64,000 nucleotides of DNA from Cyclobacteriaceae bacterium (GTDB taxonomy: Bacteria > Bacteroidota > Bacteroidia > Cytophagales > Cyclobacteriaceae). This document shows positions 50,330 through 52,262 of the stretch, one piece after another (positions within the stretch are counted from its first letter, which is position 1; every line of letters begins with the position of its first letter). The DNA lies in assembly GCA_020832375.1 (NCBI GenBank), contig JAFIEW010000003.1:1-64000 (forward strand), read 5' to 3'. A program made the translations under genes and the position numbers. The notes under the pieces are model-generated. The model searched no databases. It had not been told where the DNA came from and saw only the letters and a list, made by a program, of their open reading frames with translations.

Positions 50330-51046
50330 CTACTGAGTAACAGCATCCTCATTTTTCCAGATGGTAAGGCACCATCGAAAAGCCCAATGCCATGATAGTC
50401 GATAGTTGTTACATCCTGCATGCTTTAATATCCTGTGCCAATCACCTGCTTTGAATGATCTTTTCACACTAAGAGGGGCATCATTTTTCACCATGCTTGA
50501 TTTACTAAAAAAACGCGTGATCCAGCTAATACTATAGTAGGCAATTGGATGACGGTGAAGGTCATTGATCAAAATGCCTGTAGTGCACTTTTTCTTAAGG
50601 CTTTTAATCATCAACACTAATTCTTCATCGGTAAAATGATGGGTAAAAAGAGTTGCCGTAAAAACATCGATGGGCGATGCAGTATGAAAATCATCGAAAA
50701 TATTTGCATGAATAAATTGAAATCCTTTTTTATCGTGTTCTGCAGCTGCGTATTCTAAGATATTTTCATTCATATCAATACCATACAGATTGACAGGTAT
50801 ATTTTCTTTTTCCGCCCATAGCCGCATGGTTTCCATCATATCACCTGCTCCACACCCCACATCGGCAACATGCCAGGATCGGCTTTCATCGATTCCTAGA
50901 CGCTCTAGGCCATGTCTTGTAACTAAATTTCCACCAAGATATCTATTTACTGTTTTTAGTTCTTTGAGGGTTTGTATGAGTACTTCGCCACTCACAGAGG
51001 GATCATCCATAATTTCCTTTTGATAAGATCTTTGCTGTAATCCCAT
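50330..51046 (-). CDS. class I SAM-dependent methyltransferase
   Basis: The protein has 238 residues of the Rossmann-type methyltransferase fold. Motif I is VADVGCGAGDM (60-70), then the acidic strand end NLYGIDMNE, and motif III ILINDLHRHP. The N-terminal region (YQKEIMDDPSVSGEVL then TLKELKTVNRYLGG) resembles methyltransferases found with polyketide or quinone-type biosynthesis, but the substrate cannot be assigned. It stands alone; a structured RNA candidate lies just upstream. Confidence 0.85.
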   Translation of the reverse strand: MGLQQRSYQKEIMDDPSVSGEVLIQTLKELKTVNRYLGGNLVTRHGLERLGIDESRSWHVADVGCGAGDMMETMRLWAEKENIPVNLYGIDMNENILEYAAAEHDKKGFQFIHANIFDDFHTASPIDVFTATLFTHHFTDEELVLMIKSLKKKCTTGILINDLHRHPIAYYSISWITRFFSKSSMVKNDAPLSVKRSFKAGDWHRILKHAGCNNYRLSWHWAFRWCLTIWKNEDAVTQ

Positions 51047-51214
51047 GATTTAGTAATGAGTTAAATTGATTTTATTATTCGATTTCTTAATATACACTAG
51101 ATATAGCACACCTTTATCTATTGCATCTGAAATAAAAGTAAGCAAGAATTTTGATAGAACTAATCAAAATGATGTTATTTGCGTAACAAAGAATGAAAAT
51201 AAGAAAAAGACATT

Positions 51215-51420
51215 GACTCTCCCGAGGAAGGAAACGTTTCTTGAACCTAACATTTACTAATATACCGGGTGAAGCCGCTTACGATGCCAGGCCTCATCTT
51301 CTTAGGAAGACCTCGTTACTTTGGTAGCAGGTTAACAGTGGAAGGTTGACTTAGGTTGGCAGCCCAAATCCTGTTTATATCGGGGTTCAAAAACCAATCC
51401 CTTTCTCATATGGGGGAGTC
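51215..51420 (-). ncRNA. 206-nt structured RNA candidate, possibly 6S RNA
   Basis: There is a nested fold with these pairings: 51215-51223 with 51412-51420 (9 bp), 51224-51231 with 51400-51407 (8 bp, one G-U), 51241-51247 with 51384-51390 (7 bp), and an apical hairpin 51297-51301 with 51306-51310. This long rod with an internal open region and a total near 200 nt is how 6S RNA is built; I could not match specific conserved bases. The minus strand is favoured because the closing stem is followed there by CTTTTTCTTATTTTC. A promoter-like TATTATTTG and a GGGATGAG motif lie 30-50 bp before the other end. A leader element for the methyltransferase is the main alternative. Confidence 0.5.
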
Positions 51421-51451
51421 ATATTTTGTATAGCAGTTCACTGGCTGCGTT

Positions 51452-51467
51452 CTCATCCCAACTCAAA
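51452..51467 (-). repeat. TTTG-N4-GGGATGAG intergenic motif (variant)
   Basis: Minus-strand copy with a 4-base spacer, about 32 bp before the 5' stem of the structured RNA candidate. It may mark that RNA's promoter or start. Confidence 0.4.
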
Positions 51468-51500: not shown

Positions 51501-52262
51501 ATGAATATATCATTAGCGAGCAAAAAAATTATAGTAACGGGTGGAAGCCGAGGGATAGGTCGTGCTTTAGCTTTAGGGCTTGCAGATTCTGGTGCTGAAG
51601 TAGTTATTTTTTATTCAAATAGTGAGGCACAAGCCGAAAATGTTGTAGAAGCTGCAAAAGGCATGATACAGCCCATGAAAGTAGACCTTGCAAATACAAA
51701 GGATATAAGCTACCAATTTAAAAGAGCTGTTGACTTACTCGGTGGACTTGATGTACTTATTAATAATGCAGGTATTGCCAAGGCTGTACCTATGGATGTA
51801 GAGGAGGATGATTTTTTAAAGCACTGGGAAGATACTTTTCGAGTAAACACCACTGCGCCAGCATTACTGAGTTATTTGAGCGTCAATCATTTCACAAAAC
51901 ATGACCAAAAAGGATGTCTTATCCATGTCAGCTCAAGGGCTGCCTTTAGGGGTGATACAACTGATTTTATGGCTTATGGTGCAAGTAAGGGCGCATTGAT
52001 GAGTATGAATAGAACTCTAGCGAGGGGCTTTGGTAAGCAAGGTATTGTCTCTTTCGATCTAGCTCCAGGATTTACCAAAACGGATATGGCACAAGACTTT
52101 ATTGATCAGTATGGAGAGGATTTTGTGAAGTCAGATCTAGCTCTCAATGATATTACAGTAGCAGAGGATTTAGTACCGATCGTCGTATTGATGGCGAGTG
52201 GCAAGATGGATCATGCAACTGGGGGTACTTTCCACTTTAATGCAGCGAGCTATGTACATTGA
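51501..52262 (+). CDS. SDR-family oxidoreductase
   Basis: The protein has 253 residues, a classical short-chain dehydrogenase. The nucleotide loop is TGGSRGIG (13-20), NNAG is at 88-91, and the catalytic Ser (HVSS, 142-145), Tyr159 and Lys163 (YGASK) are all present. The sequence resembles FabG-like NAD(P)H reductases, but the substrate is open. Its last 26 bp overlap the 3' end of the convergent membrane-protein gene. Confidence 0.9.
   Translation: MNISLASKKIIVTGGSRGIGRALALGLADSGAEVVIFYSNSEAQAENVVEAAKGMIQPMKVDLANTKDISYQFKRAVDLLGGLDVLINNAGIAKAVPMDVEEDDFLKHWEDTFRVNTTAPALLSYLSVNHFTKHDQKGCLIHVSSRAAFRGDTTDFMAYGASKGALMSMNRTLARGFGKQGIVSFDLAPGFTKTDMAQDFIDQYGEDFVKSDLALNDITVAEDLVPIVVLMASGKMDHATGGTFHFNAASYVH

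Follow-up and report, generated by a model that had tools for sequence, protein, structure and literature searches.

The window analysed here, a 64,000-nucleotide stretch of the genome of a Cyclobacteriaceae bacterium, very probably carries the 6S RNA gene (ssrS) of this organism, located at positions 51215–51420 of the plus strand and expressed from its own promoter. This reading is supported by homology, because models built from relatives of the RNA coincide, in forward and reverse searches, with loci of RF01685 (6S-Flavo) and RF01693 (Bacteroidales-1), and reach canonical 6S RNA (RF00013) through sub-threshold matches. A preliminary description, made from the letters of the window, had proposed a divergent and unannotated 6S RNA, and the landing of Cytophagales-trained models on Rfam 6S-Flavo and Bacteroidales-1 loci lends that proposal support. 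Since the standard Rfam models miss 6S RNA across the whole family Cyclobacteriaceae, what we describe is clearly an annotation gap filled by a diverged 6S RNA, and no new kind of molecule.

6S RNA is a global transcription regulator, a small RNA that keeps RNA polymerase in reserve, and its annotation in Bacteroidota consists of two separate Rfam families that miss the Cyclobacteriaceae. The new models unite 6S-Flavo, Bacteroidales-1 and RNAs that lacked annotation, from Cyclobacteriaceae and further families, in one homologous set linked to canonical 6S RNA. They provide an annotation tool, a testable structure and a conserved apical element accessible to mutational analysis.

Fold, conservation and orientation of the RNA

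On the plus strand, positions 51215–51420 fold with a minimum free energy (MFE) of −69 kcal/mol, compared with −55.2 ± 4.8 kcal/mol for dinucleotide shuffles (z −2.87; 1 of 200 as good). The stretch is intergenic, with a methyltransferase gene (50330–51046, minus strand) on one side and an SDR gene (51501–52262, plus strand) on the other, which is where the preliminary description had placed a strongly structured RNA; both the location and, given the fold and the covariation in relatives, the structured character were borne out. The same description called the interval gene-free, which holds insofar as the RNA overlaps no gene, but a short ORF at 51066–51260, the only one in the interval, overlaps it in part; homologues keep the RNA structure and not the reading frame. 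Four nested helices of 9, 8, 7 and 5 bp had also been drawn. Of these, the plus-strand MFE structure contains the outermost, of 9 bp (GACTCTCCC/GGGGGAGTC), and the 8-bp helix that it encloses, but the third and fourth helices there measure 4 and 8 bp, and the unbranched 206-nt rod proved wrong, the apex being split into two hairpins, P6 and P7 (Table 1). No tRNA or tmRNA was found in the window, and SRP RNA was rejected as a candidate, the SRP RNA of the genome being encoded on another contig (C77).

Table 1. Coordinates of the RNA and its parts in the window.
Feature	Position	Strand	Evidence
6S RNA gene (very probable), structured core ~206 nt	51215..51420	+	Fold z −2.9; covariance model matches; covariation
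Candidate promoter	51151..51181	+	TTG 51151–51153; degenerate −7 element TTATTTG 51175–51181
Closing stem P1, 5′ strand (GACTCTCCC + GAGGAAGG)	51215..51231	+	Fold; pairing test in relatives
Closing stem P1, 3′ strand	51400..51420	+	Fold; pairing test in relatives
Helix P2, 5′ strand, adjoining bubble	51242..51248	+	Partner 51383–51389; double changes in 7/8 pairs
Helix P2, 3′ strand	51383..51389	+	Covariation; alternative partner, 3′ bubble strand
Central bubble, 5′ strand, A/U-rich, conserved ACA	51249..51266	+	Unpaired from P2 to P3 in consensus; predicted pRNA template region, extending into P2
Central bubble, 3′ strand, conserved CAAATCYTGTC	51366..51381	+	Conservation in alignments
Helix P3, 5′ strand GGG	51267..51269	+	Pairs with CCC 51363–51365
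Helix P4, 5′ strand	51274..51282	+	Partner 51350–51360; highest covariation scores
Helix P5, 5′ strand	51285..51288	+	Partner 51344–51347; 4/4 pairs with double changes
Apical segment GGCCTCA, near-invariant	51290..51296	+	Alignment conservation
Hairpin P6	51297..51310	+	6/6 pairs with double changes
Hairpin P7, bulged C 51314	51311..51331	+	6/7 pairs with double changes
Apical segment TTAACAGTGGAA, near-invariant	51332..51343	+	Alignment conservation

A blastn search of 98 relatives gave a similar sequence in 35 genomes, only one of them from outside the family, and an alignment of 30 sequences revealed near-invariant blocks together with paired regions that change in concert. When the structure was built by hand on this alignment, made from sequence alone, double changes were present in 26 of 34 pairs, a score that 0 of 500 shuffles reached. 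In a pattern scan of named genomes the relatives fell within Cyclobacteriaceae (among them Algoriphagus, Cyclobacterium, Belliella, Echinicola and Cecembia), some lying outside it, such as Persicobacter. Across 80 relatives in a model-fitted alignment, which is biased towards the structure, pairing holds in 93.4% of cells and double changes occur in 30 of the 34 pairs, a score reached by 0 of 500 shuffles, so that covariation, a check named in the preliminary description, came out strong; sliding the partners by one column lowered pairing to at most 56%. Helix P3 exchanges GAG:CTC for GGG:CCC and is 100% paired in the 80 relatives, and for the closing stem P1, evaluated in 79 relatives, the pairing of a sequence's own 5′ and 3′ ends equals or exceeds that of 97% of swapped partners.

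Three covariance models were used, among them R2, built from members of the same order only (Cytophagales; alignment A3), and R3, built from the joined set (alignment A4); in the source genome R1, R2 and R3 each match at 51229–51410 on the plus strand. Searching 390 genomes of the order with R1 recovered the RNA once per genome in 73 genomes of the same family, and weaker matches in 16 genomes of other families. Among the genomes listed without a match is G041, of the same family (2.9 Mb, 99% complete), which points to loss, divergence or an assembly gap. Two class-level genomes gave two R2 matches apiece (G476, at L205 and L241; G507, at L242 and L243), which may mean that these genomes carry two 6S RNAs, as B. 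subtilis does, or that their assemblies are mixed.

Paired positions of the 80 relatives contain 186 G·U pairs against 40 A·C mismatches, a ratio that favours the plus strand. On that strand 65 of 78 relatives carry the Bacteroidota −7 element, TAnnTTTG, no more than 70 nt upstream, against 2.7 expected by shuffling, and 70 of 80 have a T5 run in the 45 nt downstream of the RNA. Clustered neighbours in relatives are divergent upstream, which we take from reading their sequences to be universal-stress-like or serC genes, and convergent downstream, presumably flippase-like or serA genes. The G·U asymmetry, the upstream element and T-run, and the orientation of the neighbours therefore indicate an independent plus-strand gene. 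In relatives it is a single-copy gene with its own promoter and terminator; in the source window these signals are weak, the promoter being weaker than the TAnnTTTG of relatives, the T-run short and the neighbours different. The TTG/TTATTTG candidate promoter may be the one used in the source genome.

Orientation was the point on which the preliminary description was not borne out, since it had read the RNA, a T-rich end and a promoter (TATTATTTG) on the minus strand. A small RNA encoded there would agree with a fold that is also good (−61.6 kcal/mol, z −2.41), but the 186 to 40 asymmetry, the conservation of promoter and T-run on the plus strand, and the fact that Rfam 6S loci are matched on the same strand as the plus-strand RNA leave this reading with next to no probability. 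Nor does a cis-regulatory, riboswitch-like leader of a neighbouring gene fit the relatives. Such a leader might be suggested by the SDR gene, which lies on the same strand and begins 81 nt downstream in the window, and by the two possible partners of the P2 3′ strand, which recall a switch; however, downstream neighbours that cluster in relatives are convergent and differ by lineage, and the T-run comes after the RNA in those 70 of 80. With no conserved same-strand gene downstream, the leader was rejected by synteny and is extremely improbable.

As regards the surroundings of the independent 6S gene, several lineages (L036, L037 and others) have it flanked by serA-like and serC-like genes, and in many other relatives it adjoins a universal-stress-like gene. 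Both neighbourhoods are possibly ancestral synteny and useful for locating the gene. Between the RNA and the SDR gene, GCGTTCTCATCCCA at 51447–51460 is a dispersed element, present at 13 other places in the source genome (L277–L288); its 14 occurrences, usually followed by A-rich sequence, compare with 0 for the reversed control.

Homology to 6S families and the reach of existing models

No family matched the window in an Rfam scan at gathering threshold, and a scan of the interval with E up to 5 returned no sensible match. The search with the Rfam 6S and 6S-Flavo models suggested in the preliminary description thus gave no score, and RF01693 likewise did not score the window in either scan; none of the gathering scores of RF00013, RF01685 and RF01693 was reached. 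RF00013 and RF01685 detected no 6S RNA in the source genome, and RF00013 found nothing in 60 Cyclobacteriaceae relatives, the same model detecting the RNAs of E. coli, B. subtilis and others. RF01685 attained its threshold in none of 60 Cyclobacteriaceae genomes (genera), and in the reverse search it matched weakly in 8 of the 60, seven of the eight matches being the RNA described here. Apart from RNAs of this type, no other 6S RNA was recognised in the family (source genome and 60 relatives).

The searches with our own models gave a different picture. Applied to 395 genomes of the class, R2 matched 104 at E ≤0.1. Six of its loci (L227, L228, L229, L230, L232 and L235) are called RF01685 above threshold, and their family, f74, appears to comprise complete, flavobacteria-like genomes; two further loci, L239 and L240 in family f53, are called RF01693. 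The R2 matches overlap these RF01685 and RF01693 calls on the same strand, and R1 alone recovers 14 of 14 loci tested. RF01685 is also the best Rfam match, below threshold, at four more R2 loci (L231, L233, L234 and L236), and at L231 and L237 RF01685 and RF01693 both match weakly at one place. Outside the class, R3 matches coincide on the same strand with RF00013 at 10 loci, where RF00013 is the best Rfam match with E-values of 2.8e-5 to 0.89, all below threshold; R2 matches at these loci as well, in some cases over the apical part only.

Homology to accepted 6S families was accordingly found in both directions for RF01685 and RF01693, with a sub-threshold connection to RF00013, and the RNA has the 6S architecture of closing stem, large central bubble and apical arm within ~200 nt, with covariation. 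These comparisons of sequence and structure support a common origin of the Cyclobacteriaceae RNA with 6S-Flavo, Bacteroidales-1 and, more remotely, canonical 6S RNA. Because trusted 6S members are matched by models made from relatives of the RNA, the failure of the Rfam 6S models is no bar to this assignment; it is a matter of the reach of existing models and no biological definition of 6S RNA. RF01685 and RF01693 should probably share a clan with RF00013.

A literature search on RNA motifs of Cyclobacteriaceae returned nothing relevant, and a bacterial 6S RNA survey from 2014 may already include related candidates, also from this family. Elsewhere in the phylum, 6S RNA and two pRNA classes have been detected in B. 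thetaiotaomicron (PMC7366714), the identity of that RNA with the RF01693 locus being an assumption, and a 6S transcript has been detected in F. psychrophilum (PMC9723704).

Proposed polymerase release and the branched apex

6S RNA binds the polymerase holoenzyme through its likeness to an open promoter, and P2 is opened when pRNA is synthesised on the 5′ bubble; in the E. coli type, the P2 3′ strand released in this way goes on to base-pair with the 3′ bubble (PMC8876501). By analogy with the 6S family, the Cyclobacteriaceae RNA would mimic an open promoter, bind housekeeping sigma-A RNA polymerase, accumulate in stationary phase and serve in pRNA synthesis: on the return of nucleotides, the polymerase would copy the 5′ bubble strand into a short pRNA invading P2, the freed P2 3′ strand would anneal to the CAAAUCYU conserved in the 3′ bubble, and the bubble would collapse and release the polymerase, as in the E. 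coli type.

The complementarities needed for such an exchange are present, as both the 3′ bubble (CAAAUCYU) and the P2 5′ strand are complementary to the P2 3′ strand. With the P2 5′ strand blocked in the fold of the window, the 3′ bubble and the P2 3′ strand formed a hairpin of 7 bp, and in 63 of 80 relatives this segment folds with 6 bp or more (mean z −1.7), with only one covarying pair. Release of the E. coli type through the 3′ bubble/P2 hairpin thus has moderate support from folding models. A second hairpin, lying 3′ of P2 (GAGGUUU..AACCUC), was considered as the alternative partner of P2 and covaried in 30 sequences. The 3′ bubble/P2 hairpin is preferred because support for this second candidate is patchy in the 80 sequences, where its local folding is near random.

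The strongest sequence conservation of the RNA falls in the apical junction, where GGCCUCA and AACAGUGGAAG are near-invariant. That the conserved apex makes a phylum-specific contact, with a polymerase subunit of Bacteroidota or some other factor, and so defines a functionally distinct 6S class, appears unlikely. It is very improbable that the RNA is a 6S homologue with a changed job, binding core polymerase instead of the holoenzyme in the manner of Ms1 or offering the apex as an additional site for a protein or ligand: the peak of conservation at GGCCTCA and AACAGTGGAAG would suit this explanation, and Ms1 illustrates that core polymerase binding by a 6S-like RNA is possible (PMC9130861), but conservation extends to the bubble strands and the P2 switch, and the RF00013 alignment of canonical 6S RNA also has a conserved apical element, GCAaGCC...GGAAgC, which aligns with the branched apex. 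Because the corresponding region of RF00013 is conserved too, the branched apex could be a known 6S element in elaborated form.

Comparison with known 6S and 6S-like RNAs

Among the accepted families, 6S-Flavo (RF01685) shares loci with the Cyclobacteriaceae RNA, the same places being matched by both models in flavobacteria-like genomes, and both have the AAACTCAACA/GGAGTTT P2, the GGG:CCC P3 and AGCCCTAAACCTGTT in the 3′ bubble. The flavobacterial form differs in its smaller size, with a match of ~145 nt, and in having a reduced apex. Bacteroidales-1 (RF01693), for which Rfam goes no further than suggesting a 6S identity ("6S-Bacteroidales suggested"), receives R1-, R2- and R3-type matches at L239, L240 and L268 and has ACCGAG, GCGGGCC, CAGTGGA, CACTCAAATCWTGTC and GGAGTTT in common with the Cyclobacteriaceae RNA, whereas its apical hairpins and closing-stem sequence are different. 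Canonical 6S/SsrS RNA (RF00013) presents the same closing stem, central bubble and apical arm; its textbook form is a rod, in contrast to the Cyclobacteriaceae RNA, in which the apex branches into two hairpins. Finally, Ms1 of Actinobacteria offers a parallel: it is likewise a 6S-like RNA that 6S models missed and comparative work found, but it binds core polymerase and belongs to another phylum (PMC9130861).
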